DNA from: a virus
IMG/VR virus record: IMGVR_UViG_3300010938_000951
Span: 124,001 to 188,000 of that record
Reading direction: 5' to 3' (one strand)
Length of the DNA: 64,000 nucleotides
The first letter of the stretch is position 1; each line of letters opens with the position of its first letter. The translations under genes were made by a program, and so were the position numbers. The notes under the pieces are model-generated. The model ran no database searches. It worked only from the letters and a program-made list of their open reading frames with translations, and was not told where the DNA came from. Positions 4,080 through 34,569 of this stretch are shown one piece after another.

Positions 4080-4156
4080 CTGCCTGTAGCTCAACTGGAT
4101 AGAGCATCAGTCTACGAAACTGAAGGTTGTCGGTTCGACTCCGACCAGGCAGGCCA
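4080..4156 (+). tRNA. tRNA-Arg (ACG), normal class I
   Basis: Acceptor CTGCCTG/CAGGCAG, G73, CCA encoded. D-stem GCTC/GAGC. Anticodon stem TCAGT/ACTGA with loop CTACGAA, anticodon ACG. A34 would need conversion to inosine (host TadA) to read CGU/CGC/CGA. Confidence 0.92.
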
Positions 4157-15838: not shown

Positions 15839-15851
15839 TAGGAGATAGAAA

Positions 15852-19504: not shown

Positions 19505-19933
19505 ATGGTTGTTGTAGTTCCGCAGATGCGCCACGAGCAAAAGCCCTGTGATGGTTCTTTTATTCGTATCCCGTCTGAAAAACTAAAGACGATGGCTCTT
19601 CAAACTCTTGAGAACATCAAGAAATACAAGGCCAAGGATCGTAAGAGGTTAGCTGACCGGGAACGCAAAGAACTCCAAGAAAAACGAGAGAAGCGTCGCA
19701 ATAGCATCTGGTCCAAAATTTTTGGCTATAAGGAACAGCCTGAGCCAACTGATGAGGAACTTATAAAGATGCATGAGAACAGTGGTAGCCCAGGCTGTAT
19801 ATGGCTCCCGGAAACTTTCTGGATTGATTACCGTTACGAGAAAAATATAGAAGTGGCTCATCGTCTACTCAATGCAACAGAATATGCCGATGAAGTTGCA
19901 GTATCTACTAAGGACTTAGAAAGATTGATATGA
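19505..19933 (+). CDS. hypothetical protein with basic coiled coil
   Basis: 142 residues. Residues about 30-70 are a highly charged helix (KKYKAKDRKRLADRERKELQ), likely coiled coil. The C-terminal part has SGSPGCIWLPETFWIDYRYE. SD GAGGTAAATT before the ATG. Its TGA overlaps the next ATG. Not recognised. Confidence 0.66.
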   Translation: MVVVVPQMRHEQKPCDGSFIRIPSEKLKTMALQTLENIKKYKAKDRKRLADRERKELQEKREKRRNSIWSKIFGYKEQPEPTDEELIKMHENSGSPGCIWLPETFWIDYRYEKNIEVAHRLLNATEYADEVAVSTKDLERLI

Positions 19934-20247
19934 ATAATTCATGGACATTGGTAGAGGCTATTGCTTTTGCTAATTCACTACATGAATATATCTATCCATT
20001 AGGATTTGATGTTGCTATAACTGGTAGTATTCTAACTAAAGGTTATAGTGAAAAGGATTTAGATTTGGTGATATATCCTTTAAAAAAGATATCATCTAAC
20101 TATACGAATTTGATTAGTAAGCTTCCAAATTTCGGATTAAAATTTATCCGTCTGCCCAATCATAATCTTGGTTATCAAGACGATGGTAAAAATGTTCAAG
20201 TTTGGGAGCATAATAACAAACGTGTAGATTTATTTTTCTTGAGTTAG
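19930..20247 (+). CDS. small nucleotidyltransferase-like protein (Pol beta fold)
   Basis: 105 residues. The motif GSILTKGYSEKDLDLVIYP is the GS...DxD signature of minimal Pol beta-type nucleotidyltransferases, and KRVDLFFL near the C-terminus supplies the third acidic residue. Such proteins transfer NMP to protein, RNA or small molecules. It directly precedes the larger nucleotidyltransferase. It is one of only two genes in the window ending in TAG; read-through would add only two codons before a TGA. Confidence 0.72.
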   Translation: MNNSWTLVEAIAFANSLHEYIYPLGFDVAITGSILTKGYSEKDLDLVIYPLKKISSNYTNLISKLPNFGLKFIRLPNHNLGYQDDGKNVQVWEHNNKRVDLFFLS

Positions 20248-20249
20248 TT

Positions 20250-21362
20250 ATGAGCAAGCACCCCGTATTAGATTTAATTGTTAAAAAGAGTCCACATTTA
20301 AGCTGGATTGAGGATAATACTGCGCTATTAGTGCGCCATGGTTCTCATGCTTATGGCACTAATACTGCAACATCCGATGAAGATTTTAAGGGCATTGCAA
20401 TCCCAACTAAGAAATACTTTTTGGGTACTATGCATCGCTTTGAACAGGCTGAGTTGAAAGCGCCTGATCCTGATGCGGTTATCTATGATATTCGTAAGTT
20501 TTTCAATTTAGCTGCTGATTGCAACCCTAACATCATTGAGGTTTTACATACGGACCCATCTGACCATTTTCTGGTAAGTCCGATTGGTGAAGAGATTTTA
20601 GCTCATAAAGATGACTTCTTATCTAAGAAAATTAAGTTTACCTTTATGGGTTATTCGGTAGCACAGCTCAAAAGAATCAAGACTCATAAACGCTGGATCA
20701 TGAATCCACCATCTGCTCCGCCAACCAGAGCCAGTTTGGGATTACCAGAACAGACCTTGATTCCACAAGATCAGCTAATGGCTGCTCAAGCCGAAGTGCA
20801 GAAAGAATTAGATAGATTCCAGTTCGACTTCATGGAGGGCATGGAAGAGTCAGCCAAGGTTGGACTACGTAGTACGGTCTCCGAAATGCTGGCAGAGTTG
20901 AAGATCACTTCTGACCAACACTGGGAAGCCGCGGCTCGAAAGATTGGCCTTAGTGATAATTTAATTCTTGTTATGCAGCGCGAACGCGAGTATGCAGCAG
21001 CTAAACGAGAATGGGATCAGTATCAGAACTGGAAGAAAACTCGTAATCCGGCCAGGGCCGCACTAGAAGAAAAGTTTGGTTATGACACCAAACATGCCTA
21101 TCATTTAGTGAGACTCATTCGTATGTGCCGAGAGATTCTCACTACTGGTAAAGTTTTAGTGAAGCGTCCCGACCGAGAAGAGCTGTTAACTATTCGCAAT
21201 GGTGCTTGGTCTTATGAACAGTTAATTGAGTTTGCTGACCGTGAGGAAAAAGAACTCAATGAGTTGTATAACATTACTACAGTTTTGCCCAAAATGCCCG
21301 ATAGAGAAAAGCTTGACGCATTGTGTATTCGATTAGTTGAGCGCTCTTTATCTGGTGTATAA
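20250..21362 (+). CDS. RlaP-like nucleotidyltransferase (Pol beta superfamily)
   Basis: 370 residues. N-terminal GSHAYGTNTATSDEDFKGI is the hallmark of the RlaP/PF10127 group; SDED supplies the catalytic acidic pair. The body continues with YDIRKFFNLAADCNPNIIEV and a helical C-terminus with KHAYHLVRLIRMCREIL. Family members are linked to RNA repair operons. The insert around residues 150-260 (Pro-rich then helical) is longer than in minimal members. It begins 2 nt after the preceding stop. Confidence 0.82.
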   Translation: MSKHPVLDLIVKKSPHLSWIEDNTALLVRHGSHAYGTNTATSDEDFKGIAIPTKKYFLGTMHRFEQAELKAPDPDAVIYDIRKFFNLAADCNPNIIEVLHTDPSDHFLVSPIGEEILAHKDDFLSKKIKFTFMGYSVAQLKRIKTHKRWIMNPPSAPPTRASLGLPEQTLIPQDQLMAAQAEVQKELDRFQFDFMEGMEESAKVGLRSTVSEMLAELKITSDQHWEAAARKIGLSDNLILVMQREREYAAAKREWDQYQNWKKTRNPARAALEEKFGYDTKHAYHLVRLIRMCREILTTGKVLVKRPDREELLTIRNGAWSYEQLIEFADREEKELNELYNITTVLPKMPDREKLDALCIRLVERSLSGV

Positions 21363-21381
21363 TTTCGTATCTAAGTACAGT

Positions 21382-21729
21382 ATGGGAACCGAAAACACCT
21401 ATCATATTTTTGTATCACCTATAGCCGCTGAGCAAGTCAAATTACAACTTGAACGGCGAGGAACACCACAATCTTGTTTAAGGCTTGGTATTAAAGGTGG
21501 AGGTTGTTCTGGGTTTTCATATGTACTTAGATTCGAAGATGACCCTCCAAAGGATCGAGATGTTGTGTTTGAACAGCACAACATTAAAATTGTAGTTGAT
21601 AAAAAGAGTTTAGTTTATCTTAACGGAGCTACATTGGATTGGGAGAAATCTCTGATGAAGCAGGGATTTAAATTTATTAATCCAAATGAAAAATCTAGTT
21701 GTGGTTGCGGACACTCTTTTACAGTTTGA
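21382..21729 (+). CDS. A-type iron-sulfur carrier (IscA-like) 2
   Basis: 115 residues from ATG 21382 (chosen to match family length). Cysteines: C42 in KGGGCSGFSY and C107/C109 in SSCGCGHS. It is only moderately similar to the first carrier at 19161, suggesting separate targets or an old duplication. A TATAAT at about 21357-21362 lies 20 nt upstream, at the end of the preceding gene. Confidence 0.92.
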   Translation: MGTENTYHIFVSPIAAEQVKLQLERRGTPQSCLRLGIKGGGCSGFSYVLRFEDDPPKDRDVVFEQHNIKIVVDKKSLVYLNGATLDWEKSLMKQGFKFINPNEKSSCGCGHSFTV

Positions 21730-21742
21730 TGAAGGAATGAAC

Positions 21743-21967
21743 ATGATTCATGGAATCTATTTGAGAAGCAAACCAAAAAACAAGTGGCTTTTGGTCTCTC
21801 AGACTATTTCGCCGGAAATGGCACATATGGAGGTTGAAGCTTTTAAAAAGCAAGCGGCTGAAGATGGTTTAGACCAAGCTGAGGTAGCAATTCAAACTTT
21901 TGATTCTGCATTTTTTATTCCAGAGACTTTGGTTGAATTAAAAGAACGGAAAATTCTATATAACTAA
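21743..21967 (+). CDS. hypothetical protein
   Basis: 74 residues from ATG 21743, which has GAAGGA at ideal spacing (an ATG 6 nt earlier touches the SD). Alpha/beta small domain: IHGIYLRSKPKNKWLLVSQT, then MAHMEVEAFKKQAAEDG. Not recognised. Confidence 0.62.
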   Translation: MIHGIYLRSKPKNKWLLVSQTISPEMAHMEVEAFKKQAAEDGLDQAEVAIQTFDSAFFIPETLVELKERKILYN

Positions 21968-21969
21968 TT

Positions 21970-22902
21970 ATGAGCCAATTAAATAAGTTTGAAGCTCTAC
22001 TCTATGAGTTTGAAGAGCCGTCAGTATCTAAAAGGCAAATAGATAAGCTTATTTCTCTTCTAAACAAGAGTCATGTGTATAGTACAATATTTGACAGTTA
22101 TGTATCTCGGAGATTACAGGCAAATATTCATCCTGAACGCCTATTGAATATGGCTTATAATTTAGAAAAGAATGATAATACAAAGTATCTTAGTGAATCC
22201 ATTAATGTGGCAGTTGCTAATAGTATTATTTTAAAAGATGAAAATTATGATCAGTTCTATTTTATGAACCGGCATGATATTCGTGTTGAGAACCATATTT
22301 TCAAAACAGTGATTGAGAAAATTGGAGATTGTCTTGATAAGTCATCAATAGATATTATTACAAAGATTGCTTTTAATATTCGAATGGATAAACATCTATT
22401 ATTGTTAAAAGCGCTTGGAACGGTTGAATTTAGTAGTTTTCGAACTGCTTTGTTTATGGACCGGCTGGAGATTCAAGATCAGTATATGTTGGCGGTAAGG
22501 GCTTTTGAGGATAATAATGAGATTGCCCCCAAATTATTAAAGTTCTCAAATAAAAACTTATACAATCATATGTCTGGTTTAGTATCTAAAAATGGCGATA
22601 AAGATCAATTTATTACTGCCTTAAGAAATTCCGTTATTGAGATTGAGAAAATTGAATATAATGATTTTATATATTTCCTTCTCACAACAAATGCAGATCA
22701 CATTCCATCTACATTAGGAAGATTATATGTGCGGGCAGAACAGGAAGGTAGATTCAGCTATCTGTTAACAGTATGTGCACATAAAAATAAGAAAGATGTA
22801 TTAAGAACTCTTTGTCAAACGAAAGACAAAGAGTTAATTGATAAATTTTTCTCGATCTATAAAGATCATCCAGATGTGAAACATCTAGTTCCTTTCTTGT
22901 GA
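21970..22902 (+). CDS. large helical hypothetical protein (paralogue of 17945)
   Basis: 310 residues, mostly helix. C-terminal KDHPDVKHLVPFL parallels the end of the 17945 product. Segments such as GTVEFSSFRTALFMDRLEI and LLKALG suggest repeated helical hairpins. No catalytic motif. Function unknown. Confidence 0.7.
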   Translation: MSQLNKFEALLYEFEEPSVSKRQIDKLISLLNKSHVYSTIFDSYVSRRLQANIHPERLLNMAYNLEKNDNTKYLSESINVAVANSIILKDENYDQFYFMNRHDIRVENHIFKTVIEKIGDCLDKSSIDIITKIAFNIRMDKHLLLLKALGTVEFSSFRTALFMDRLEIQDQYMLAVRAFEDNNEIAPKLLKFSNKNLYNHMSGLVSKNGDKDQFITALRNSVIEIEKIEYNDFIYFLLTTNADHIPSTLGRLYVRAEQEGRFSYLLTVCAHKNKKDVLRTLCQTKDKELIDKFFSIYKDHPDVKHLVPFL

Positions 22903-22941
22903 GGTATCTGTTATATAGTCATGTGATATCTCAAAGGAAAC

Positions 22942-24048
22942 ATGACTAATGCTTTAAATCTCCAAGAGCTGGATCAAGAACAAGCTCTCAATCTTACCAA
23001 ATTTTTCATCCAATCACAACATAATGTGTTCCTGTTTGGTAGGCGCGGGGTAGGTAAAACTGATATTGCAATTCAGGCTGCACGAGAATGTGGCTATAAA
23101 ATCAATTATATTAATTTAAGTGTAATTGAGAGGCCGGATTTAGCAGGATATCCTGATATGAATTCGCCTGGTGATGTTATCAATTTTAAATCACCAAATT
23201 TTCTACCCAAACTATTAGATGGTTATAAACCAGATAGCGTGATTCTATTTGATGAAGTGGACAAGGTTCAACCAGAAGTAACTGCTCCATTATTAGAGAT
23301 CCTTCTTTTCAAAAAAATTAATGGTATACCCATCAATGCTGCGTCTTGTATTTTGACTGGCAATTTAGCACATGAGGGCGCCTACTCCAATGAAATAAGT
23401 TCGGCTTTATTGGATCGTGGCGCCAAATTTATATTACAGTTCAATTTTGAAAAGTGGGTTGATTGGGCTAAGGCACATAACGTTCATGATCTTATCTTAG
23501 GTTTTTTACGTAGTGATCCTGATTTTGCTTGCGGAAAAGAAGAAGATTCATTTTACGCTTCACCATCACCGAGAAGTTGGACTTGGGCATCAGACGCGCT
23601 TTTAAGAGCAAAAGATTTAAAGGTGACTGATATAGACTCCGTCACTCAAATCATTTCAGGTTATGTCGGAAGTGAGGCGGGGTTAAGGTTCAAGTTATGG
23701 TATGAACATTATCGTAAATTTGAACCGCATGTTCATTCTTTAATTGACCGTGGCGAAATGTCTCTCAATTATAGTGACTTAATGCCTACTGAGAGAGTAG
23801 TGTTTGTAGTGTCTGCATGCTATTATGCAAAACAACGAGTATTCAAAGATAAATCTAAGAATAGATTTGCATATCTAGAGAACTTATGTAACTTCTTTCA
23901 ACAGTGCAAAGTAGAATCAGAAGTCCAAATTATGGGCCTCCATAATTCTTTTGATTTTGATATGATTAGGTCACACAAATTATATACGTGTAAACCATTT
24001 TTCGATCTCTTTACTAAGCTGAGTGAAAACGTTACGTTCAAGAAATAA
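22942..24048 (+). CDS. MoxR-like AAA+ ATPase (2)
   Basis: 368 residues, colinear with the ATPase at 8501. Walker A GRRGVGKT near residue 34, YINLSVIERPDLAGYPDM, Walker B VILFDEVDKV, ILTGNLAHEGAY, SPRSWTWASDALL. Unlike copy 1 it has no VWA gene next to it, so it may share the first partner or act on another target. SD AAAGGA; a TTATATAGT box is about 30 nt upstream. Confidence 0.87.
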   Translation: MTNALNLQELDQEQALNLTKFFIQSQHNVFLFGRRGVGKTDIAIQAARECGYKINYINLSVIERPDLAGYPDMNSPGDVINFKSPNFLPKLLDGYKPDSVILFDEVDKVQPEVTAPLLEILLFKKINGIPINAASCILTGNLAHEGAYSNEISSALLDRGAKFILQFNFEKWVDWAKAHNVHDLILGFLRSDPDFACGKEEDSFYASPSPRSWTWASDALLRAKDLKVTDIDSVTQIISGYVGSEAGLRFKLWYEHYRKFEPHVHSLIDRGEMSLNYSDLMPTERVVFVVSACYYAKQRVFKDKSKNRFAYLENLCNFFQQCKVESEVQIMGLHNSFDFDMIRSHKLYTCKPFFDLFTKLSENVTFKK

Positions 24049-24058
24049 TGGCGCGCCC

Positions 24059-24087
24059 TTGACATCCTAATTTTTAGGATTTATGTT
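24059..24087 (+). promoter_or_regulatory. sigma70-like promoter for thioredoxin
   Basis: TTGACA (24059-24064), 17-nt spacer, TATGTT (24082-24087). The short inverted repeat TCCTAA-TTTT-TTAGGA lies in the spacer and could be an operator. Confidence 0.65.
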
Positions 24088-24103
24088 CTCGATGTGAGGT
24101 CGT

Positions 24104-24427
24104 ATGAGTAATGTTGTTCATGTAGATGATAATAATTTTGAAACCGAAGTTCTTCAATCTGACGTTCCGGTATTGGTAGATTTTGGTGCCACATGGTGTG
24201 GCCCATGCCAAAGACAATTGCCTATTGTAGAAAAGTTTGCAACTGATAATAGCAATGTGAAAGTTTGTAAAGTGGATATTGATGATGCTCCAGCTATAGC
24301 CTCTAAGCTAGGTATTCGTGGAGTTCCTACTTTAATGCTTTTCAATGAGGGCAAGTCTGTAGGCTCTAAAGTTGGACTAACCTCTCTTGCTGAGATTAGT
24401 AACTTCGTATTGACTAAGACCGGCTAA
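24104..24427 (+). CDS. trxA: thioredoxin
   Basis: 107 residues, canonical length. WCGPC at 31-35 is the redox site; the cis-Pro motif is GVPTLMLF. It reduces disulfides in the cytoplasm; phage thioredoxins can serve ribonucleotide reductase or act as polymerase processivity factor (T7 uses the host one). Has its own promoter and terminator, so it is a monocistronic unit. Confidence 0.95.
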   Translation: MSNVVHVDDNNFETEVLQSDVPVLVDFGATWCGPCQRQLPIVEKFATDNSNVKVCKVDIDDAPAIASKLGIRGVPTLMLFNEGKSVGSKVGLTSLAEISNFVLTKTG

Positions 24428-24462
24428 TATAGTTAGCCATTACAATTTAACACGAAATGAGG

Positions 24463-24483
24463 GCCGGCTTCTGCTGGCTTTTT
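24463..24483 (+). terminator. Rho-independent terminator after thioredoxin
   Basis: Stem GCCGGC/GCTGGC (one G-U) with loop TTCT, then TTTTTA. It ends 6 nt before the next ATG. Confidence 0.8.
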
Positions 24484-24488
24484 ACTTT

Positions 24489-24716
24489 ATGGATATTCAT
24501 ACTGCTGCTAAATATATGGAACAAGGCTATCGAATCAAACGTGATAGTGACCCCGATATGTTGTATTTATATTACAAAGATGATGCTTTGTGGATATGTT
24601 ACAATTTTGTAGGACATTTGCCGGCCCATATCTTAATAGAAGATTTATTGGCTACTGATTGGGAATTGATTACTGATAATATTATTAGTTATTTCCCTAT
24701 TACCTACGATAAGTAA
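24489..24716 (+). CDS. DUF2829/Tad2-like protein (possible anti-Thoeris)
   Basis: 75 residues. Order of elements: MDIHTAAKYMEQGYRIKRDS (helix then G-x-x-I/V-x-R), a short strand LYLYYKD, and the C-terminal IEDLLATDWELI. This order, especially eDLLAtDWE, is typical of DUF2829 proteins, of which Tad2 sequesters the Thoeris signal molecule. The middle is divergent, so the assignment is tentative. The start lies immediately after the terminator T-run. Confidence 0.5.
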   Translation: MDIHTAAKYMEQGYRIKRDSDPDMLYLYYKDDALWICYNFVGHLPAHILIEDLLATDWELITDNIISYFPITYDK

Positions 24717-24720
24717 GAAC

Positions 24721-25116
24721 ATGTTTATATTTTTGATGATTGTGGCTAGTATAGTTAGCTATATTGTTATAGCTGGGATTACACACGGTTACGCCAAACA
24801 TCGCTGGCCTCCCAAGATTGAAAGACGCCAAGTGTGGACAGGTTCTGCATGGGAGTGGCGAAATCAAGATGATAATAGTGGTAATAGAGTTGCATCCACT
24901 TTATTCTGGCCCTTCTATTGGATATTTATCTGGCCTTTCACTAAAATGAATGAAGTAACCTTCTCTCGTATGGAAAAAAGTGCCGGGTTAGAACTGGTTA
25001 AAAATAAAACTCGTATTGCTGAGCTTCGTGCGACCCGTGACCAATTAGCTGCCTCTAATGCAGAATTAGAGCGGGCAGAAGAAGAATTAGAAAAAGAAAT
25101 CGCTAAAACACTGTAA
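24721..25116 (+). CDS. membrane-anchored coiled-coil protein
   Basis: 131 residues. Residues 1-22 are a membrane segment (MFIFLMIVASIVSYIVIAG). A Trp-rich juxtamembrane region (TLFWPFYWIFIWPFT) follows. The C-terminal 45 residues are a charged coiled coil (LRATRDQLAASNAELERAEE). It probably sits on the inner membrane. Not recognised; small phage proteins of this shape can be spanin- or exclusion-like, but that is speculation. Confidence 0.65.
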   Translation: MFIFLMIVASIVSYIVIAGITHGYAKHRWPPKIERRQVWTGSAWEWRNQDDNSGNRVASTLFWPFYWIFIWPFTKMNEVTFSRMEKSAGLELVKNKTRIAELRATRDQLAASNAELERAEEELEKEIAKTL

Positions 25117-25125
25117 AGAGGAAAG

Positions 25126-26061
25126 ATGTCTCAAGTAAAAATGGTTATTGGATTTCCCGCATCTGGTAAGAGTACAGTCACCAAAGATTTGATCAAGAAT
25201 GGAGCAGTCGCACTAAATCGAGACACAGAAGGCGGAACTATCGTTGGACTTTTACCAAAGCTAGAACAATTGCTTAAAGATGGTAAGGATGTTGTACTTG
25301 ATAACACATTTCCCACCATTGAGGTTCGTAAACCATTTATCGAGTTATCTAAAAAGTATGGCGCTGACATTAGCTGTACGTTAATGAGTACTTCGATTGA
25401 AGACGCTCAATTTAACGTTGTTCAGCGCACTATTGGTTTAGTTGGTGAGTTTCCAACCCCAGAAGTAATCAAGAAAGCTAAACATACTAATATTTTTCCA
25501 CCAACAGTTCTTTTCAAATACAAAAAAGAATTTCAGAAGCCAACTATAGAAGAAGGCTTTTCTAAAGTTGAAGTACACAAGTTTGTTCGACAAATCAATC
25601 CTGAATTTACTAACAAAGCTTTGATTGTAGATTATGATGGAACCTTACGAGAGTGTATTGGTGGAAACGAAAAATTTCCTGTTGCTAAAGAGCAAATTGA
25701 AATCAAACCAAATCGCACCAAAGTTCTAGAAGAGTACAAGAAAAAGGGCTATCGCCTCCTTGGTATTTCAAATCAAAGCGGAGTTCACAAAGGTGAATTA
25801 AGCCATGAGACCGCTGTAGAGTTATTCGAGCACACTAATAAATTGCTTGGCGTTGATATTGAATATAGGTTCTGTCCACATCAATCAGCTCCAATTTCTT
25901 GTTATTGTCGCAAACCTATGCCTGGTATTTTCGTGGAGTTTATGCTCAAGTACAAACTAAATCCAAAAGAATGTATCTTTGTAGGAGATATGACTACGGA
26001 TGAAACATTCGCAAAACGAGCTGGTATACAATATGTAGATCAAGCGGAGTTTTTCAAATGA
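25126..26061 (+). CDS. kinase-phosphatase with GmhB/HisB-type phosphatase domain
   Basis: 311 residues, two domains. N-terminal P-loop kinase: GFPASGKST at 9-17, DNTFPT. C-terminal HAD phosphatase: DYDGT at 169-173, ISNQSG, zinc-binding CPHQS...CYCRKP and VGDMTTDE. The zinc loop places the phosphatase with the HisB-N/GmhB/PNKP-3'-phosphatase group. The likely role is healing of broken nucleic acid ends (5'-kinase plus 3'-phosphatase). The second kinase-phosphatase at 26652 is of the T4 type, so the phage carries two different versions. SD AGAGGAAAG. Confidence 0.85.
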   Translation: MSQVKMVIGFPASGKSTVTKDLIKNGAVALNRDTEGGTIVGLLPKLEQLLKDGKDVVLDNTFPTIEVRKPFIELSKKYGADISCTLMSTSIEDAQFNVVQRTIGLVGEFPTPEVIKKAKHTNIFPPTVLFKYKKEFQKPTIEEGFSKVEVHKFVRQINPEFTNKALIVDYDGTLRECIGGNEKFPVAKEQIEIKPNRTKVLEEYKKKGYRLLGISNQSGVHKGELSHETAVELFEHTNKLLGVDIEYRFCPHQSAPISCYCRKPMPGIFVEFMLKYKLNPKECIFVGDMTTDETFAKRAGIQYVDQAEFFK

Positions 26062-26396
26062 AAAAGAAGAAGCTATTACTTATTTGTCCAGAAGATAAAG
26101 AATATAAAATGTTTCTTCATTATGATAAGGTTATCAAGGGCGGTATAATTAGTCCTTTCCAATTGATGGTTGATGCTTTGCGGGGCCAATCTTGGCCCCT
26201 TGTAGACCTCAAAGCAACACGTGATGCTATAGCACAAGATTTCAGATATTTACTTTTATACAAAAGGTATGAGTCACTGAGGCTATATTCTAAAAATACA
26301 CTTTCATATGATGAGAACGGATTTCATTTAGATGGTCATGTGTTTGAAACACTAGATGAAGTAGAAAAAGCTCTTAGACTAAAATCTTTTTTGTGA
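26058..26396 (+). CDS. hypothetical protein
   Basis: 112 residues, ATGA overlap with the kinase-phosphatase gene. N-terminus is basic then a strand (KKKKLLLICPEDKEY), followed by helices (LKATRDAIAQDFRYLLLYKR). Not recognised; probably cotranscribed with the RNA-repair genes. Confidence 0.66.
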   Translation: MKKKKLLLICPEDKEYKMFLHYDKVIKGGIISPFQLMVDALRGQSWPLVDLKATRDAIAQDFRYLLLYKRYESLRLYSKNTLSYDENGFHLDGHVFETLDEVEKALRLKSFL

Positions 26397-26405
26397 GGAT
26401 TTATT

Positions 26406-26642
26406 ATGGCAAAGAAACATATTCATGTCGTTTGGTCAACAGACGATAAAAATTGGCAAATCAAAAAAGAGGGCAACAAAAATGCCCTCGCGACTACCAA
26501 AACTAAAAAAGAAGCATTGGAAGTAGGAAAAGAATTTGCCAAATTAAATAAAGTAGAATTAGTTATTCATAATAAAGATGGTAAAATATCTGATAAAGAT
26601 AGCTATGGAAACGAATCTAAAGTTAAAGATACAGTTAATTAA
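26406..26642 (+). CDS. DUF2188-family protein
   Basis: 78 residues. Pattern VVWSTDDKNWQIKKEGNKN, TKKEALEVGKEFAKLNKVEL, VIHNKDGKISDKDSYG is that of DUF2188 (W-x-V-K-x-E-G ... A ... A-x-x-x-A ... LvvH-x-xDGkI-x-x-x-SYG). Function unknown; found in bacteria and phages. SD GAGG. Confidence 0.85.
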   Translation: MAKKHIHVVWSTDDKNWQIKKEGNKNALATTKTKKEALEVGKEFAKLNKVELVIHNKDGKISDKDSYGNESKVKDTVN

Positions 26643-26651
26643 AGGCATATA

Positions 26652-27593
26652 ATGATTAAGGTAGAAATGTTAGTTGGTATGCCTGCCTCAGGTAAGTCTA
26701 CTTACGCCAAGCAGGTTGTTGCCAAAGACCCAAGCAATTGGGTTAGAGTAAATAACGATGATTTACGTGCCATGATGAATGGCAGTGTTTGGAGTGCAGA
26801 TTATGAAAAGATGGTCACGGATGCTCGTAACTACCTTATTCGAGATGCCTTGAAACGCGGCAAAAATGTTATCATTGACAATCTCAATTTGAACAGGCGC
26901 CATTTCGATGATGTATGCAAAATTGCTAAATCAGTTAATGCCGACATTCAGGTTTATGAAAAAACTTTCTATATTGACTTGGATGAAGCCATGGAGCGCA
27001 ATGCAAAGCGTGAAGGTGCTGCCCGAGTTCCTGATGAGGCTATGAAGAAATGGTGGAAAGAATCTGGCAAAACCCAGTTCAAATTCTATAAGCCACGAGT
27101 TGAAATTTTTAAAGAGCAAAAAGGTTCTGCTCCAGAATTTGCTCCTCCTGTTTGGGATGACAAGCTTCCGACAGCAGTTCTTTGCGATTTGGATGGTACA
27201 CTTGCTTTAATTCACAATCGTAGTCCATATGACGCCACTGACTGTGATGTTAAAGACTTGCCAAACTGGCCGGTGATTGAAACAATCATTGCTCATTGGA
27301 AAGCTGGTCGCAAGATCATTTTCTGTTCTGGGCGTGAAGATAAACACCGCGAGGCAACTATTAGGTTTATTGAGAAATATTGCCTAGTAGATGGAAACCC
27401 AATCGAGTATCAACTCTATATGCGCAAAACTGATGACTTCCGTAAGGATGCTATCATTAAAGAAGAAATCTACAATGAACACATCGAAGGACAATATAAT
27501 GTGCTTTGTGTGCTCGATGATCGTAATCAAGTTGTAGATTTTTGGAGAAGCAAGGGGCTTACTTGCTTCCAGGTCGCTCCCGGCAATTTCTAA
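26652..27593 (+). CDS. pseT: T4 PseT-like polynucleotide kinase/3'-phosphatase
   Basis: 313 residues (T4 PseT is 301). N-terminal kinase: GMPASGKST at 9-17, DDLRAMM, IIDNLNLN. C-terminal HAD 3'-phosphatase: CDLDGTLA with D179/D181, FCSGRED, VLDDRNQVVDFWR. Known role: it removes 3' phosphates (including 2',3'-cyclic) and phosphorylates 5'-OH ends, preparing cleaved tRNA for ligation after anticodon nuclease attack. Three RNA ligases lie within 6 kb downstream. Confidence 0.95.
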   Translation: MIKVEMLVGMPASGKSTYAKQVVAKDPSNWVRVNNDDLRAMMNGSVWSADYEKMVTDARNYLIRDALKRGKNVIIDNLNLNRRHFDDVCKIAKSVNADIQVYEKTFYIDLDEAMERNAKREGAARVPDEAMKKWWKESGKTQFKFYKPRVEIFKEQKGSAPEFAPPVWDDKLPTAVLCDLDGTLALIHNRSPYDATDCDVKDLPNWPVIETIIAHWKAGRKIIFCSGREDKHREATIRFIEKYCLVDGNPIEYQLYMRKTDDFRKDAIIKEEIYNEHIEGQYNVLCVLDDRNQVVDFWRSKGLTCFQVAPGNF

Positions 27594-27871
27594 TGAATAA
27601 AATATACGTACTGTTTGCTAGGAAGTATCCAAAAGGTAGCGAGAGCTACACTTACCTACCAGACTATGAAATTCATTATGAGCCAGTTGAGCCTAAAGGG
27701 CCAAGAGATAAGGTAGCAGTGCTAGATGTCAATGAATGTGTTGATACTATGCGCTGCACCTTGTCTGACGACTTGGATTATGTAAAATGTCAGCTTGTTA
27801 CTGTTAGCAATATTGATGGTAAGGCGATAGAGACAATCACTGAATCATTTATTTTAGAGGCCAATCAATGA
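27593..27871 (+). CDS. hypothetical protein
   Basis: 92 residues from ATG 27593, sharing one base with the stop of pseT (TAATG). Beta-rich: KIYVLFARKYPKGSESYTYL, LDVNECVDTMRCTLSDDLD. Not recognised. Confidence 0.65.
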   Translation: MNKIYVLFARKYPKGSESYTYLPDYEIHYEPVEPKGPRDKVAVLDVNECVDTMRCTLSDDLDYVKCQLVTVSNIDGKAIETITESFILEANQ

Positions 27872-28404
27872 AAGAGCCATTCATGAATCATATGTTCCCT
27901 AACTGCTATATGCGACCATGGGAAAGAAATTATGAAGCCCGCACTGAAGATGTGGTACTCTATGGTTACTATGAAAAATATCGTAATGATGACGATAAGC
28001 AATATTGCGAATATTGCGATGAAGAGCTTGGTTACAAAGATGGCGAGTATCTAGACTGTGATTGTGTGGATGCCAAAGACGATAGAGAGGGAACACCATC
28101 TTTCCCTAAATTATCACAGATAACTCTTCAATCTATCCTAGATATGTTGCCTGAGGGAGTAAAGCCCTCTGATGTGAAAATATCTATTAGCCTTGATACT
28201 GGTGATATGGGTATCTATGGCCAAGAGCTGACTTTCTCTTATAAAAAGACTTTTGAAGCTGATCCTGAGGGATTCAAAGCTGCCCAAAAGCAGTATGAGG
28301 AGAATTATCAAGCCTATCTTGTTGAAAAACAGAAATATGACGAATGGAAGCGCCAAGAAGAGATAAAGGCCCTTGAAGAGAAAATAGCCGCCCTTAAAAA
28401 GTGA
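27868..28404 (+). CDS. hypothetical protein with zinc-ribbon-like segment
   Basis: 178 residues, ATGA overlap upstream. Around residues 45-68: CEYCDEELGYKDGEYLDCDC, a possible zinc ribbon. The C-terminal 50 residues are a charged helix (KRQEEIKALEEKIAALKK), likely coiled coil. Not recognised. Confidence 0.66.
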   Translation: MKEPFMNHMFPNCYMRPWERNYEARTEDVVLYGYYEKYRNDDDKQYCEYCDEELGYKDGEYLDCDCVDAKDDREGTPSFPKLSQITLQSILDMLPEGVKPSDVKISISLDTGDMGIYGQELTFSYKKTFEADPEGFKAAQKQYEENYQAYLVEKQKYDEWKRQEEIKALEEKIAALKK

Positions 28405-28422
28405 GCGGTTCTGATAGGTTGC

Positions 28423-28450
28423 TTGACGCCCTATTTATTAGAATTACGAT
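28423..28450 (+). promoter_or_regulatory. promoter abutting the RNA ligase start
   Basis: TTGACG (28423-28428), 16-nt spacer, TACGAT (28445-28450), then only 6 nt to the ATG at 28457. No Shine-Dalgarno can fit, so the mRNA would be leaderless. Confidence 0.65.
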
Positions 28451-28456
28451 AGTAAC

Positions 28457-29212
28457 ATGATCAAGCTACCTCGAACTCGACATATTGAAGACTCTGGGGC
28501 ATGGCAAGAGCCCAACCCCGAGGCAATACAATTCAATAAATTGGCTGGTGAATTTCTAGTGGTCGAAGAAAAGCTAGATGGCACCGGCGTTTCGATCTTC
28601 TTCGATTCTGATTTTCAGGTGCAAATTTGGCACCGCGGGAGTCCGGCAGTTGGCAAAGAATTTCATGATTTGAAAATTTGGGCCTCTGAGTTGCATAAAG
28701 AGCATTTGTTCGATCTATTAGAAGACAGATATATTCTGTTTGGAGAGTGGTTGCGCTATAAGCACAATATCTTTTATGATAGATTACCTCATGCGTTTTT
28801 TGAATCAGATATCTTTGATTTAAAAGAAAATAAGTGGCTTAACACAATTGATAGATATGATTTGTTGAAGTCTCATGACTCTCATATTGTTTCGGTGCCA
28901 GTGATTGCCTCTTTTAAACCTACCGCATTTGAACAGTTAACTTCTTTGGTTGGTAAATCTTTTTATCAATCAAATAAGTGGCGGGAAGTGCTAGAAACAT
29001 CTTGCCATCATAAAGGATTATCTTTTGAAGAAGTGCTAAAGCAAACAGATCAGTCTGGTTTGGCCGAAGGACTCTATATTAAACATGAAAGCGACAAAGA
29101 GGTTATAGGTCGCTATAAATATGTTCGTCGTGAGTTTATTCACACTATTGTTAATTCGGGCACTCATCTTAGAGATAGGATACCAATTCATAATGAACTA
29201 AGGATTCTATAA
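28457..29212 (+). CDS. RNA ligase (1), Rnl2-type fold
   Basis: 251 residues. Nucleotidyltransferase motifs: motif I EKLDGTG with K39 as the adenylated lysine, motif III FESDIFDL after GEWLRYKHNI, motif IV AEGLYIK, motif V RYKYVR. It lacks a large C-terminal domain, so it resembles a minimal ATP-dependent RNA ligase. It would seal 3'-OH/5'-P RNA ends made by the upstream kinase-phosphatases. Start is 6 nt downstream of a -10 box. Confidence 0.88.
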   Translation: MIKLPRTRHIEDSGAWQEPNPEAIQFNKLAGEFLVVEEKLDGTGVSIFFDSDFQVQIWHRGSPAVGKEFHDLKIWASELHKEHLFDLLEDRYILFGEWLRYKHNIFYDRLPHAFFESDIFDLKENKWLNTIDRYDLLKSHDSHIVSVPVIASFKPTAFEQLTSLVGKSFYQSNKWREVLETSCHHKGLSFEEVLKQTDQSGLAEGLYIKHESDKEVIGRYKYVRREFIHTIVNSGTHLRDRIPIHNELRIL

Positions 29213-29469
29213 TGGCTATTACATTTGGTATTATTTTGTTGCTTGCCATCTATGTAACATGGAAGTTATTTGTAGATGGTTGGCTTTTCAAAATCATTCT
29301 ATTTTTCGCGGGATGGGTTGGACTATATGTGCTTCTGGCAGTTTATGTTGAGGGGGCAAAAGATGTCGCGTTCACTATGAGCAATGGTTTTTCTATGAGT
29401 TGGGCCGCCGTAGTTCCTACCATCATTTGTTTTCTATGTTTGCTATGTACAAAGGTGTCAAATGAATAA
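29212..29469 (+). CDS. small membrane protein
   Basis: 85 residues with two or three hydrophobic helices (FGIILLLAIYVTWKLFV, IILFFAGWVGLYVLLAVYV, AAVVPTIICFLCLLC). ATG shares its first base with the preceding stop. Not recognised. Confidence 0.65.
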   Translation: MAITFGIILLLAIYVTWKLFVDGWLFKIILFFAGWVGLYVLLAVYVEGAKDVAFTMSNGFSMSWAAVVPTIICFLCLLCTKVSNE

Positions 29470-29677
29470 GATGTTTAAAGAAAATGGTTTTCTTACCGAA
29501 GAGGGCAAAAGAGTATTACAGCCTTTACATGATGGTCTAATGGAAGTTATTCGAGCGCCAGAAGTCCAGTCTATGTCTGTGCAAGAGTTAAGAGTTTTAC
29601 AGGCCAATCTTGCTAAACTTATTGGTGATACTATGTTCGGAGCTATTTATGCGAAAAACCACGAAAAAATCGATTGA
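29462..29677 (+). CDS. hypothetical protein
   Basis: 71 residues, overlapping the membrane gene by 8 bp. Helical: EEGKRVLQPLHDGLMEVIRA, VQELRVLQANLAKLIGD. Not recognised. Confidence 0.6.
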   Translation: MNKMFKENGFLTEEGKRVLQPLHDGLMEVIRAPEVQSMSVQELRVLQANLAKLIGDTMFGAIYAKNHEKID

Positions 29678-29879
29678 TGCTATCGATAAGTTTTTTGAAA
29701 CCCACCCGCATTTAGATAATGCGGTAGATGTATGCGCGGTTCCATTAAAAGACCAAAAGATAACCGCTTTACGACGTCAATATGATAATTCAATTTATGC
29801 TTATCAATGTGATATGTGTGGTAGCGCTTGGAAAGTTTATCAACAAAGAATTCATTTTGAAGGCTGTCCTTATGTGTGA
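29649..29879 (+). CDS. small zinc-finger-like protein
   Basis: 76 residues from ATG 29649, overlapping the previous gene by 29 bp. C-terminal CDMCGSAWKVYQQRIHFEGC (C-x-x-C ... H-x-x-x-C) suggests one zinc site. Its stop overlaps the next gene's GTG. Not recognised. Confidence 0.6.
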   Translation: MRKTTKKSIDAIDKFFETHPHLDNAVDVCAVPLKDQKITALRRQYDNSIYAYQCDMCGSAWKVYQQRIHFEGCPYV

Positions 29880-31150
29880 ATAAAATGAAACTATTAGTTC
29901 AAGAATATTTAGAAACGCATTCGTTTGGAGATTTAGCACGAGAACATGGTGTCTATGCATCGTTCTCTAAATCCGGTCATAAGTTTTCTTTAAACTATGA
30001 TCAGATTGAAGCAAAGGAATCAGATCCTTTGGCTCAAGAATGCCGAGGTCTAGTCTTGGGTTATCTTCCTCCAAACCCATGTGGCATGGTTCCGCCAGAA
30101 CCAGTTCCTTGGAATATGGTAGATGGTAAAGTCAATCGTGATAATATCATTCCTGGCAAGACCAAAATTCTAGCGTATCCAATGAAGAGATTTTTCAATC
30201 ATGGTCAGGGTGCTGCTGCCGATATTGATTGGTCAGACCCCAAGCTAGCTGTGCTAGAAAAACTAGACGGAACTTTATGTATCGTTTATTGGGACGAATT
30301 TACTAACAAGTGGTGTGTGGCAACTCGTTCTGTTCCTGAAGCAGATTTACTGATGGATAACGGAATCTACACCTTCCGTACTTTGTTCGAAAAGGCGCTG
30401 AAGGATACTACTGGTTATGAATTCGATATCTTCACTCGATATTTATCAAAGGAATGCACTTATTGTTTTGAATTAACTACGCCATACAACCGTATCGTAG
30501 TTGAATATAAAACTAATGGTGTAACCTTACTGGCCATCAGGAATCTCGTTACCCTAAATGAGCTTGCTATGGACCACCCAGAATGGGATACTCTACCAAG
30601 GAGTTTGCCATTCGTGCAGGCACACACGTACACGTCTGTGGAGGATTTGATTAATTGGGTTTCTTCGCTTAATCCAATTGAACATGAAGGTGTTGTCGTT
30701 CGAGATTCTAAATTCAACCGAATCAAGGTTAAGAATGCAGCCTACGTGGCTTACAACAAACTTCATGATAAACTAGGTTCTTCAGAACGAAACTGCATGG
30801 AATTCGTTCTTCTAGAAAAAGATGACGATGTAGCTCCATTTCTAGCTCCCGAAATTGGTCAGAATATGGCCAAATTAAAGGAGGGTTTACAGAAAGTTCT
30901 TATGAAATATGATAGCGTTTTCAATTTAGCTATGCTAAATATGAAGGCACTAGGATTCGAAGGTAACAAGAAGGAATTCGCTCTTCATATTACTAAACAT
31001 AAGGATTTATGGCACGCCCCATTCTTTGCGATGTGGGATGGTAAAGCTTCTTCTATGAAGGATTTTATTCAAAAATCTCGTAAAGATGGCACTTGGGGAG
31101 ATGGTTTTCTTGACAAAATTCTAGAATTGTCAAAAAAACATTCTCCTTGA
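29876..31150 (+). CDS. rnlA: RNA ligase (2), T4 RnlA-like
   Basis: 424 residues. N-terminal CRGLVLG (motif preceding the active site in T4 Rnl1), motif I LEKLDGTL with K129, motif III YCFELTTPYNRIVVEY, motif IV HEGVVVRD, motif V RIKVKN. The C-terminal 130 residues are helical, as in T4 RnlA. It joins PseT-healed tRNA anticodon breaks. GTG 29876 overlaps the previous stop; ATG 29885 is an equally good start. Confidence 0.92.
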   Translation: MNKMKLLVQEYLETHSFGDLAREHGVYASFSKSGHKFSLNYDQIEAKESDPLAQECRGLVLGYLPPNPCGMVPPEPVPWNMVDGKVNRDNIIPGKTKILAYPMKRFFNHGQGAAADIDWSDPKLAVLEKLDGTLCIVYWDEFTNKWCVATRSVPEADLLMDNGIYTFRTLFEKALKDTTGYEFDIFTRYLSKECTYCFELTTPYNRIVVEYKTNGVTLLAIRNLVTLNELAMDHPEWDTLPRSLPFVQAHTYTSVEDLINWVSSLNPIEHEGVVVRDSKFNRIKVKNAAYVAYNKLHDKLGSSERNCMEFVLLEKDDDVAPFLAPEIGQNMAKLKEGLQKVLMKYDSVFNLAMLNMKALGFEGNKKEFALHITKHKDLWHAPFFAMWDGKASSMKDFIQKSRKDGTWGDGFLDKILELSKKHSP

Positions 31151-31171
31151 TATATACGAAATTTGGAGGGG

Positions 31172-31200
31172 TTGACGCCGGCAACAAGCGGCGTTACCCT
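31172..31200 (+). promoter_or_regulatory. promoter for the hsp20 gene
   Basis: TTGACG (31172-31177), 17-nt spacer, TACCCT (31195-31200). The spacer contains GCCGgcaacaagCGGC, a potential small hairpin or operator. A separate TATATA box lies at about 31151. Confidence 0.5.
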
Positions 31201-31253
31201 TCTAAATGACCTTCCATGGTCTTAACCTTTTTATTTTCTAAACGGAGGTAATT

Positions 31254-31703
31254 ATGTTAACTCTTTGGAATCCATTTGTTCCTGTCACAAGGGAACGTTC
31301 AGATAGTAGAATGTCTACAAAGACATATTTTGATCGTTTATTTGAAGACACCTTCACTTCCATGTTGCGAGATTTCTCGACCCCATGGCCTGGTGTAGGA
31401 ATTGAACAGAAAAAGAATGAAGACGGCTCTCTATCCATTGCTGTTGATATTCCTGGTATCAAGGAAGAGAACATAACTGTTGAAGTGGAAGATAATGTTC
31501 TCCATATTAAAGGGGAACGTAAAACTGCCGCCTCTTCATATGCGGTAAATAAGTCGGTTCTTATTCCAGAAGGCTATTCTGCCGAAGATATTAAAGCGGA
31601 ACTTGCTGATGGTGTTCTGACTTTGAATTTGGCGGCTAAGCCGCTGCCACAAAAAGAAATTAAAAAGATACCTATAGTTTCTTCAGTGAAGCAGCTTAAG
31701 TGA
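31254..31703 (+). CDS. Hsp20/alpha-crystallin small heat-shock protein
   Basis: 149 residues. The alpha-crystallin domain covers about 48-140: LSIAVDIPGIKEENITVEVE, VLHIKGERK, ELADGVLTLNL (the A-x-x-x-n-GVL signature). It prevents aggregation of unfolded proteins without ATP. The variable N-terminus is short. Strong SD CGGAGGT; own promoter and terminator, so a single-gene unit. Confidence 0.94.
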   Translation: MLTLWNPFVPVTRERSDSRMSTKTYFDRLFEDTFTSMLRDFSTPWPGVGIEQKKNEDGSLSIAVDIPGIKEENITVEVEDNVLHIKGERKTAASSYAVNKSVLIPEGYSAEDIKAELADGVLTLNLAAKPLPQKEIKKIPIVSSVKQLK

Positions 31704-31710
31704 TTGAGTA

Positions 31711-31750
31711 AAAGGGCCGGTTGATTAAGTTCAACCGGCCCTTTGTTTTG
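31711..31750 (+). terminator. strong Rho-independent (possibly bidirectional) terminator
   Basis: A 14-bp stem (AAAGGGCCGGTTGA paired with TCAACCGGCCCTTT) with a 6-nt loop, followed by TTGTTTT. The A-run on the 5' side makes it usable on both strands. Confidence 0.9.
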
Positions 31751-31765
31751 CGCTATTAATTACGA

Positions 31766-31771
31766 TATATA
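31766..31771 (+). promoter_or_regulatory. -10-like TATATA box, possible leaderless start
   Basis: CGATATATA ends 6 nt before the ATG at 31778, right after the hsp20 terminator, so new transcription must start here. No Shine-Dalgarno. Confidence 0.55.
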
Positions 31772-31777
31772 CTATGT

Positions 31778-32494
31778 ATGAACAAATACATGTATGAGAG
31801 TGATTATAGTGCAGATTCTCTCAGATGGCTAACTAAGGTCACGGAACTTAATATATTACCTCATGAATATCAAAGATTGGAAGAACTTCAGAACGAAATA
31901 ATAAAAAACAAAGATTCGGCAATGGCTTGCTTCTTTGCTACTGAGTTTGGAAAGTTCAATCCTCATAAAATGCAAAAGGTAATCTTAGACAAACGAGATC
32001 CGAAATACGCTTTTACTTTTGCGCAATACATTCCAAATGCAGATATTAAAGCACTACAAAATGTGGTAATACAATCTAAAAGTACCAAGTACATAACTAA
32101 ATTTGCATGCTTTATTAAACAGTCAGATAGAAAAATACTTGAAAGTCTGATTTTAGAATCTAAAAGTGTGAAATATGCTCACATGTATCTTAAACATGTA
32201 AAAAGTGCAGACATTAAAAAATTCAAACATATTATTCTAGAATCTGGTAAACCAAGATATTTATTTGAATTGGCTAAACATCTTACCTCAGATGCTGATA
32301 TTGAGATGGTTGAGGATTTAATAATTAAATCGCAGTCCTTCACTTATATGAGATTGTTTGCTGAAAAGATTAAAAAAGCCAATGTAGATAAAATAGAACA
32401 AGCAGTATTAGCGACTGATAATGGCCCCGAAATCAAAAAATTTGCTAAGTATGTTCGACGATCTAAAATGAAACAATTCTTATTGGTAATGTAA
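31778..32494 (+). CDS. 28-residue helical repeat protein
   Basis: 238 residues. From about residue 66 it consists of six tandem units of 28 (once 29) residues. Each has the form hydrophobic-x-x-h-I-x-(E/Q)S-(K/G)-S-x-x-Y at its start and K-x-(A/S)-D-I-K-x at its end; unit starts include LQNVVIQSK, LESLILESK, FKHIILESG and VEDLIIKSQ. This forms a predicted alpha-solenoid, likely a protein-binding scaffold. No enzyme motif. Transcription appears to start just before the ATG. Confidence 0.75.
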   Translation: MNKYMYESDYSADSLRWLTKVTELNILPHEYQRLEELQNEIIKNKDSAMACFFATEFGKFNPHKMQKVILDKRDPKYAFTFAQYIPNADIKALQNVVIQSKSTKYITKFACFIKQSDRKILESLILESKSVKYAHMYLKHVKSADIKKFKHIILESGKPRYLFELAKHLTSDADIEMVEDLIIKSQSFTYMRLFAEKIKKANVDKIEQAVLATDNGPEIKKFAKYVRRSKMKQFLLVM

Positions 32495-32495
32495 A

Positions 32496-33188
32496 ATGGA
32501 CTCTCCTAAATACAACAGAACATTTCATTTGCCCTGGAGTCCTGGCGCAACCGATGACGACAAGATAGCTACGTCTATTGATCATTTATTAAACACACCA
32601 ATTATAATTACTGAAAAGATGGATGGAAGCAATACCTCACTGGAGTTTAATGGATGTTTTGCCAGAACACATGCCGGACCTCCAGCTCATGCATCCTTTG
32701 ATGGACTAAAAGCTTTACATGCATCGCTCAAATACAAAATCCCTGAGGGAGTTCAATTGTTTGGAGAATGGTGTTTTGCGCGCCATTCTATTGAGTATAA
32801 TGAGCTACCAGGATATTTTATGCTATTTAATGTTAGAGATATGAACACTAGGGTTCCGCCAATGTGGACATCATGGGAAGAAGTCGAAATGTGGGCAGAA
32901 GAAATTGGTGTACCAACTGTTCCGGTTTTATATAAAGGTTCTGTTTCTTCTGAAAATGAATTAAAGGAATTAGTGGAATCTTTTATGAATCAGCCGTCAT
33001 CTTGTGGTGGTATAAGAGAGGGCGTGGTGGCTCGTATGGCGTTAGAATTTCCAGATGAAAGCTTTTCCTTATGCGTAATGAAATGCGTGCGTGCGAATCA
33101 TGTACAAACTTCAGAACATTGGAAAGATCAGGAAATCATTAGGAATAAAATTAAACCTAATTTGGCGCTTGACTCCTCGGTGCGCTAG
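32496..33188 (+). CDS. RNA ligase (3), KMDGSN type
   Basis: 230 residues. Motif I EKMDGSN with K41; then CFARTHAGPPAHASFDGLK (motif Ia/II region), LFGEWCFARHSIEYN (motif III), REGVVARM (motif IV) and CVMKCVR (motif V). A compact ATP-dependent RNA ligase-like family common in phages. One of only two genes in the window that end in TAG; read-through would add about 16 residues, but a promoter overlaps that stretch. Confidence 0.85.
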   Translation: MDSPKYNRTFHLPWSPGATDDDKIATSIDHLLNTPIIITEKMDGSNTSLEFNGCFARTHAGPPAHASFDGLKALHASLKYKIPEGVQLFGEWCFARHSIEYNELPGYFMLFNVRDMNTRVPPMWTSWEEVEMWAEEIGVPTVPVLYKGSVSSENELKELVESFMNQPSSCGGIREGVVARMALEFPDESFSLCVMKCVRANHVQTSEHWKDQEIIRNKIKPNLALDSSVR

Positions 33189-33249: not shown

Positions 33250-33513
33250 ATGGGTTTACGTAGATTTCATTTCGAAAGAACTGAAGATGCGTCCGGTGTA
33301 AGTGGTTGTGGACGAGTAGCGGAAGGTTGTCTGTTTACGGACACAGGCGAAGCAGTAGTTCACTGGTTAGGAAATCATGGTAGTATTAATGTCTACCATT
33401 CCATTGAAGATATCATTTATGTCCATGGACATGAAGGTAGAACCAGGATTGTATTTGATGATCCTCAGCCAGCAAGTGAAGCTAAGGAAGAGTTAAAGAA
33501 GGATGGAAATTAA
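33250..33513 (+). CDS. conserved phage hypothetical protein
   Basis: 87 residues. FHFERTEDASGVSGCGRVAE, then VVHWLGNHGSINVYHSIEDI: a beta-rich small domain seen in many phage proteins of unknown function. SD AAGGA 8 nt upstream. Confidence 0.72.
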   Translation: MGLRRFHFERTEDASGVSGCGRVAEGCLFTDTGEAVVHWLGNHGSINVYHSIEDIIYVHGHEGRTRIVFDDPQPASEAKEELKKDGN

Positions 33514-34222
33514 ACGTCATATATTTGTTGGTGATATTCACGGGTGTATTGAAGAGTTTAATGAACTCTTAAAACAAGTCTCTTACAACCCAAGTGAAGA
33601 TAGATTGATCCTTTTAGGAGACTTAATTGATCGCGGTCCAGACTCCGTGGGTGTTGTGCGAAAAGCACGAGAACTAAAGTTGGAATGTGTTATGGGAAAC
33701 CACGAACACAAATTCATCAAATGGTTTCGTTCGCAAGGCACCCGCGTTGATGTCTATGACCGACGGGATTTTTATTCTCAATTATCTGATCAAGATGTAA
33801 CTTATATTCAAGACATGCCGCTCTATATTGAGCTGCCAGATGTCATTGCTGTTCATGCCGGGCTCAAACCCGGCATTTCTTTATCTAATCAAAATAAAGA
33901 TGATTTGATGTATCTGCGATATACTGATGCAGATAGAAAATTTATCAGTATCAAAAAGATTGCTAAACTGGGCAAAGAGGCTACTGGCGCTAAATTCTGG
34001 ACAGAATTTTGGCAAGGTCCCAAATCCGTTGTGTATGGTCACAATGTTTCCTCTTATGAAGAACCGCTAATCGAAGAGGTTGCTCCAGGAATAACCTGTT
34101 ACGGTTTGGACACCGGCTGCTGTTTTGGTGGTCGTCTGACTGCTATGATTTGGGAAACCAAAGAAATAGTTCAAGTCCAAGCAAAGCGGACGTATTATGA
34201 ATCGAAATTTGAGTCCAAATGA
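33503..34222 (+). CDS. PPP-type metallophosphatase
   Basis: 239 residues. All family blocks are present: GDIHG (about 10-14), GDLIDRG, GNHE, a later HAG and YGHN. The fold uses two metals to hydrolyse phosphomonoesters or dinucleoside polyphosphates; relatives include phage lambda Ser/Thr phosphatase and ApaH. An RNA-end or signal-nucleotide role would fit the repair neighbours but is unproven. Overlaps the previous gene by 11 bp. Confidence 0.9.
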   Translation: MEIKRHIFVGDIHGCIEEFNELLKQVSYNPSEDRLILLGDLIDRGPDSVGVVRKARELKLECVMGNHEHKFIKWFRSQGTRVDVYDRRDFYSQLSDQDVTYIQDMPLYIELPDVIAVHAGLKPGISLSNQNKDDLMYLRYTDADRKFISIKKIAKLGKEATGAKFWTEFWQGPKSVVYGHNVSSYEEPLIEEVAPGITCYGLDTGCCFGGRLTAMIWETKEIVQVQAKRTYYESKFESK

Positions 34223-34569
34223 ATTACTCCCAAAACCAACTCAAGAATCTAGCCCAAAGCAACCCAAAAGAATTAGCAAGAATTTTAACCAGCCCCAACG
34301 CCGACATTCATACGTTGACATTTGGGGCTGAACTTTTAGGGGATGTAAACGATGAGCGGATTGTTCTCCCTACACTTCGACAGCTACTTAAGCATATTAA
34401 CGCTATTGTTAGAGAAGGCGCTTTGATGGGAGTTTCTTCTTTTTATTCAGAAAAGAAGCCGCCTCAGGACATTTTGGATAGACTTCGCTCTATTGCTAGT
34501 AATGATCCTTCTCCTTCTTTAAGGGGTGATGCGAAGGCAATTCTGGAAGATTTGGAGGCTCTGCCATGA
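34219..34569 (+). CDS. HEAT-repeat-like small protein
   Basis: 116 residues, ATGA overlap upstream. Two helical-hairpin repeats are visible (ERIVLPTLRQLLKHINAIVR followed by GALMGVSSF, and LRSIASNDPSPSLRGDAKAI). HEAT-like repeats usually mediate protein binding. Specific function unknown. Confidence 0.65.
   Translation: MNYSQNQLKNLAQSNPKELARILTSPNADIHTLTFGAELLGDVNDERIVLPTLRQLLKHINAIVREGALMGVSSFYSEKKPPQDILDRLRSIASNDPSPSLRGDAKAILEDLEALP

Follow-up and report, generated by a model that had tools for sequence, protein, structure and literature searches.

A probable RNA end-healing and sealing block in a jumbo phage, with a T4-like core and additional minimal ligases

A gene block in a jumbo phage probably encodes a toolkit for RNA end-healing and sealing, judging from the families and active sites of its proteins. 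The window, i.e. the whole stretch of 64,000 nucleotides analysed here, covers positions 124001-188000 of a 266,899-base IMG/VR virus record (a 266.9-kb phage). All window genes given below lie on the + strand and are named by their first position. From the comparison with relatives the repair set looks like a T4-like core with exchangeable add-ons, and it is plausible that the block undoes RNA cuts made by several bacterial defence nucleases. The RNA repair function of the original prediction, whose open frames were confirmed at their positions, is well backed by the protein families, by active sites that are intact and by the conserved gene order.

The window also encodes 21 tRNA genes, two class-I W/Y-type tRNA synthetases, IF3, two ClpP and a MoxR / vWA-metallopeptidase pair. 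A jumbo phage group with such features (tRNAs, synthetases, IF3, ClpP, Thg1, MoxR/vWA) is described in PMC7824862. A DNA search of phage records found no near-identical DNA to the window in the phage collection. Recoding of TAG was rejected, as reading TAG as Q lengthened no recognisable gene at 50.4-63.9 kb.

Healing and sealing enzymes

Two kinase-phosphatases of different families are present, as predicted. The first, 26652 (26652..27593, 313 aa), is of the T4 Pnkp / Pnkp1 type, with AAA_33 and HAD_PNKP (PF25109, 1.5e-49) matches and phrog_505 at 1e-82. Its P-loop kinase followed by a PNKP-type HAD phosphatase places it in the T4 Pnkp family, and it matches both Pnkp1 (4xrp, E 4.2e-54) and T4 Pnkp end to end. 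Its catalytic motifs, like those of RlaP (20250, below), are complete and conserved.

The second, 25126 (25126..26061, 311 aa), combines an N-terminal mammalian-PNKP-type kinase with a C-terminal zinc-type HAD-IIIA phosphatase, according to profiles and a predicted model. Pfam and PHROGs give an AAA_33 kinase plus HAD/PNK3P. The best match is mammalian PNKP, mainly via the kinase domain (1yj5, E 2.7e-20 for the whole sequence), and this domain is of the PNKP type by its domain test. The HAD domain matches HisB/GmhB-type phosphatases with an invariant C-x-H...C-x-C, and Foldseek on the predicted model agrees with both assignments. Thus, the kinase domain is like that of mammalian PNKP, while the domain order is reversed (kinase first instead of phosphatase-then-kinase) and the HAD domain bears a HisB/GmhB-like zinc motif. 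With 85.2 bits against the 502.8 bits of TIGR01663, 25126 is not a mammalian PNKP equivalog. Its catalytic motifs are complete and conserved among phage relatives, and two huge-phage records encode the protein at 50% and 37% identity. The whole protein was not found in 592 sampled bacterial genomes: a search of 398 of them gave HAD parts only, and one of the other 194, run without a positive control, gave no match at E 1e-20; a bacterial origin of the entire 25126 was rejected on these searches.

Since mammalian PNKP works in DNA repair, the substrate of 25126 may be DNA. The phage protein could then repair DNA together with the NAD+ DNA ligase (LigA) encoded in the record, leaving only the rest as an RNA repair set; the kinase domain, nearest to mammalian PNKP, would agree with this. 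However, LigA lies about 40 kb from 25126, and 25126 adjoins the T4-type Pnkp and the RNA ligases in nearly all relatives, and we consider this reading unlikely.

The prediction of three distinct RNA ligases also holds, as 28457, 29876 and 32496 match PF09414, PF09511 and PF09414, respectively, and are of three different types. The ligase 29876 (29876..31150, 424 aa) belongs to the T4 Rnl1 family (RNA_lig_T4_1, PF09511, 3.9e-15, 56.8 bits with a cut-off of 28.3; phrog_562, 7.2e-37), and its ligase motifs are complete and conserved among phage relatives. Since it scores 51.5 bits, far under the 242 bits of the NCBI T4 RnlA equivalog TIGR02308, it is a relative of T4 RnlA and not an equivalog.

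The other two consist of the adenylyltransferase domain only. One, 28457 (28457..29212, 251 aa; PF09414, 3.9e-24), is from the family of bacterial HD-Pnk partners, and 32496 (32496..33188, 230 aa; PF09414, 1.8e-31; phrog_24030, 2.6e-49) is from a second minimal family. Both contain motifs I, III, IIIa, IV and V of the T4 Rnl2 nucleotidyltransferase domain, complete and invariant among phage relatives. Unlike T4 Rnl2 both are without the C-terminal domain, as seen from their lengths, from the position of motif V (residue 221 of 251 in 28457, 196 of 230 in 32496) and from the model of 28457. The fold of this predicted model matches RNA ligases. Searches of solved structures with 28457 and 32496 as single sequences matched no RNA ligase, and a pattern scan of viral contigs for 28457 returned nothing; the latter is a limit of the method, because relatives of 28457 do occur in viral contigs. 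A fourth, divergent RNA-ligase-like gene lies outside the window (G000:C1:59730-60401 of the record), and no RtcB gene was found in the record by a search whose positive controls matched.

Of two proposed Pol beta-type nucleotidyltransferases, the RlaP-like one is clear. The gene 20250 (20250..21362, 370 aa) encodes RlaP, the RNA-ligase-associated Pol-beta nucleotidyltransferase (PF10127, E 1.5e-16, 61.3 bits with a cut-off of 23; phrog_388, 2.3e-65), 57-96% identical to its relatives. The small protein 19930 (19930..20247, 105 aa) is a tentative second one: it has no match in Pfam, PHROGs or further profile libraries, and its identity is based on a GS...DxD...VDL pattern (here GS...DLD...VDL) and on conservation in two relatives (73-74% identical).

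The Thg1-like and Pth2 proteins are found further on, as expected. The Thg1-like 3'-5' polymerase (48197..48994, 265 aa; PF04446, 3.9e-17) is 65-66% identical in relatives. The idea that it simply adds G(-1) to tRNA-His was rejected, because the tRNA-His genes already encode that G. The PTH2-type peptidyl-tRNA hydrolase is at 51664..51942 (G000:C1:175664-175942; PF01981, E 2.6e-8), and the record encodes another copy at a different place. Next to 32496 lies a calcineurin-type phosphoesterase (33503..34222; PF00149, 3.3e-15; NinI-like phrog_246), which also matches ApaH-type enzymes (1.9e-33) and the phosphatase part of bacterial Pnkp (1.7e-26). It is followed by a macro-domain-like protein (34566..35081), a weak match below the cut-off (PF01661, E 6.9e-4) that is conserved in relatives. 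Whether these two take part in RNA repair is uncertain.

Gene order, losses and selection in relatives

Scans identified 15 viral loci with 25126 and 33 with 32496. The order of the block is rIIA-like, rIIB-like, adenylosuccinate synthetase, IscA-like, RlaP, IscA-like, MoxR, thioredoxin, 25126, 26652, 28457, 29876, Hsp20-like, repeat protein, 32496, phosphoesterase and macro-like, and it recurs in 13 other phage contigs covering the block. Many conserved genes of unrelated kinds lie between the repair genes. Thus, the latter do not form an operon of their own, and the co-location by itself says little.

The presence of each gene was counted in 13 contigs spanning the 25126-to-32496 slots, with two identical contigs counted once. 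Both 26652 and 29876 occur in 13/13 (29876 is shorter in one), and RlaP is found in every contig covering its part, once cut by the contig end. Full-length 25126 is present in 10 contigs, frameshifted in one and absent from two. The ligase 32496 is full-length in 11/13, while 28457 is present in seven, with a distant relative filling the 32496 slot in one more. Contig 3300043177 contains intact RlaP (96%), Pnkp and Rnl1, a frameshifted 25126 (identical in sequence in a contig from a second metagenome) and a 32496 reduced to its two ends, and 28457 is missing. At the same place in 32496, locus L053 has a reverse-strand frame that by eye is homing-endonuclease-like. In another relative, L007, a stop codon directly precedes motif I of 28457.

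Single parts are lost in relatives, which counts against a common toolkit. However, relatives losing 25126, 28457 or 32496 keep 26652 and 29876, and the picture is therefore one of a core plus optional parts. The redundancy of the original prediction has to be qualified, since the three ligases are of three types and the set looks divided into core and optional parts.

It can also be asked whether 25126, 28457 and 32496 are exchangeable cargo of lateral transfer without substrates of their own, i.e. a true redundancy around the T4-like core. The losses, the frameshift and the gutted copies would agree with this, as would a bacterial-type ligase occupying the 32496 slot of L014 and the loci L029 and L030, which are alike downstream yet different in 25126/26652. 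However, the catalytic residues of the add-ons are invariant, and the repair genes are under purifying selection, as judged from non-synonymous/synonymous ratios of 0.04-0.40 (the synonymous sites were often close to saturated). A cargo origin is thus rather improbable.

The minimal ligases and bacterial HD-Pnk

Both minimal phage ligases belong to ligase families of bacterial RNA ligase / HD-Pnk clusters, where HD-Pnk is an HD domain joined to a P-loop kinase; the enzyme from Runella has reportedly been studied. For 28457 there are 35 bacterial relatives in many phyla (35-48% identical), and HD-Pnk adjoins 32 of them, with a methyltransferase near 12. The 32496 family is matched in 18 of the 398 genomes searched from a single phylum. 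Its three closest bacterial relatives adjoin HD-Pnk, and nine more distant ones (L100-L108) have no HD-Pnk within ~1.5 kb on each side. In Hahella ganghwensis the HD-Pnk gene is flanked directly by a 32496-type gene on one side and a 28457-type gene on the other. The tree groups the 28457 proteins of phages in one clade (100/100), which lies inside a clade shared with the bacterial proteins (98/97), and it places the L014 protein among the bacterial ones.

In contrast to the bacterial clusters, searches of the phage loci and of the record turned up no HD-Pnk (one of the two was run without a positive control), and other kinase-phosphatases are present. The protein 25126 may take the place of the absent HD-Pnk. 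It can be speculated, tentatively, that the phages rebuilt the bacterial ligase/HD-Pnk system, with the minimal ligases served by 25126 beside the T4-type Pnkp/Rnl1, so that two routes handle different RNA breaks.

The Deinococcus protein DRB0100 is likewise adenylation-domain-only, in an operon with the macro-like DRB0099 and the HD-Pnk DRB0098; in vitro it formed an AMP adduct and ligated neither DNA nor RNA (PMC1997131). This speaks against the toolkit; DRB0100 is likened to the phage ligases here by its described architecture. With this precedent and without the C-terminal domain of T4 Rnl2, 28457 and 32496 might adenylylate something without sealing RNA alone, either needing a partner or having another role. 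Yet all nucleotidyltransferase motifs are present and invariant, and the healing enzyme kept as a neighbour in bacterial relatives fits sealing. We therefore find a non-sealing role no more than a minority prospect.

Proposed mechanism and comparison with known systems

We suggest that the block acts as an RNA repair toolkit in which; (i) host nucleases would cut RNA, most likely tRNA, (ii) the kinase-phosphatases would convert 3'-phosphate (or 2',3'-cyclic phosphate) and 5'-OH ends to 3'-OH and 5'-phosphate, (iii) lost nucleotides would be restored by RlaP, and by Thg1 at 5' ends, and (iv) an ATP-dependent ligase would then seal the break. The constant core would consist of RlaP, the T4-type Pnkp (26652) and Rnl1 (29876). 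The add-ons would be the minimal ligases 28457 and 32496, of a type paired with HD-Pnk in bacteria, together with the unusual kinase-phosphatase 25126, and they probably allow a wider variety of broken RNAs to be repaired. Instead of mending damage, the ligases might work on RNAs of the phage itself, in tRNA maturation, in splicing or in the making of circles. This is very unlikely, since, despite the 21 tRNA genes and the phage synthetases, IF3, Thg1 and PTH2, no phage RNA needing a ligase is known here and RlaP with two end-healing enzymes suits damage repair better.

The T4 Pnkp (PseT) and Rnl1 pair repairs tRNA cut by PrrC (PMC3874168), and 26652 and 29876 are from the same families. The phage block differs by adding RlaP, two further ligases and a second kinase-phosphatase. 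That T4 uses only one PseT/RnlA pair, as had been stated, understates its gene content, because T4 has two RNA ligases; structures of its RNA ligase 2 are among the fold matches. In the Pnkp1-Rnl-Hen1 complex (PMC4411300), Pnkp1 is matched by 26652 over its full length, but the ligases of the phage block are not the same protein and no Hen1-like partner was identified within the block.

The account that fits the block best is that of Iyer et al. 2021 (PMC7824862). It proposes the ligases, PNK-HAD and RlaP of jumbo phages as RNA-repair counter-defence, with several ligases per phage specialised for different RNases and RlaP restoring lost nucleotides. The repertoire is alike, with several RNA ligases, PNK-HAD, RlaP, Thg1 and PTH2 per genome, and the general counter-defence idea is thus already published. 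The passages of that paper considered here do not mention a link between minimal ligases and HD-Pnk or a fusion of a PNKP-type kinase with a zinc HAD. What is added here is this link of the two minimal ligases to the HD-Pnk clusters, the unusual kinase-phosphatase 25126, and the natural losses separating core from add-ons. If the proposal is true, phages with and without each part form a natural series for asking which RNA breaks each enzyme mends, and a partner is suggested for adenylyltransferase-domain-only ligases such as DRB0100, with its adenylation without sealing in vitro.

Genes flanking the block and its variation in relatives

Directly upstream of the block, the conserved stretch of jumbo-phage genes with predicted RNA end-healing and sealing enzymes, lie an rIIA-like (HATPase) gene and an rIIB-like gene (13745-16790). 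The pair is also kept in relatives, as is an adenylosuccinate-synthetase-like gene recognized by eye at 16790-17932.

Within the block, genes of the relatives, including those of the two RNA ligases with only an adenylyltransferase domain (28457 and 32496), are interrupted or replaced by frames that by eye resemble homing endonucleases. These frames are found on the minus strand of two viral contigs, L020 (13380-13802 and 14146-14613) and L053 (2700-4065). Two other contigs, L029 and L030, closely resemble each other from the T4 Rnl1-type ligase (29876) on, while the part with the kinase-phosphatases 25126 and 26652 differs, as if by recombination.

Iron-sulphur genes

Two IscA/HesB-like genes (19161-19496 and 21337-21729) and a NifU-like gene (46625-47086) form a small phage-encoded iron-sulphur assembly set.

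tRNA genes and Thg1

Two tRNA genes with anticodon CTA (52544-52700), called as Pyl by ARAGORN, are possibly amber suppressors. Two W/Y-type tRNA synthetases are located at 4818 and 6895, and no TAG recoding was seen in the genes examined in the window.

For wobble reading, the two copies of tRNA-Arg with anticodon ACG (3990-4156) and the tRNA-Thr with anticodon AGT (49220-49294) would need editing of A34 to inosine.

There are two tRNA-His genes (3275-3431), and in both the G at -1 and the CCA are part of the gene sequence. The same phage carries a Thg1-like gene (48197-48994, plus strand).
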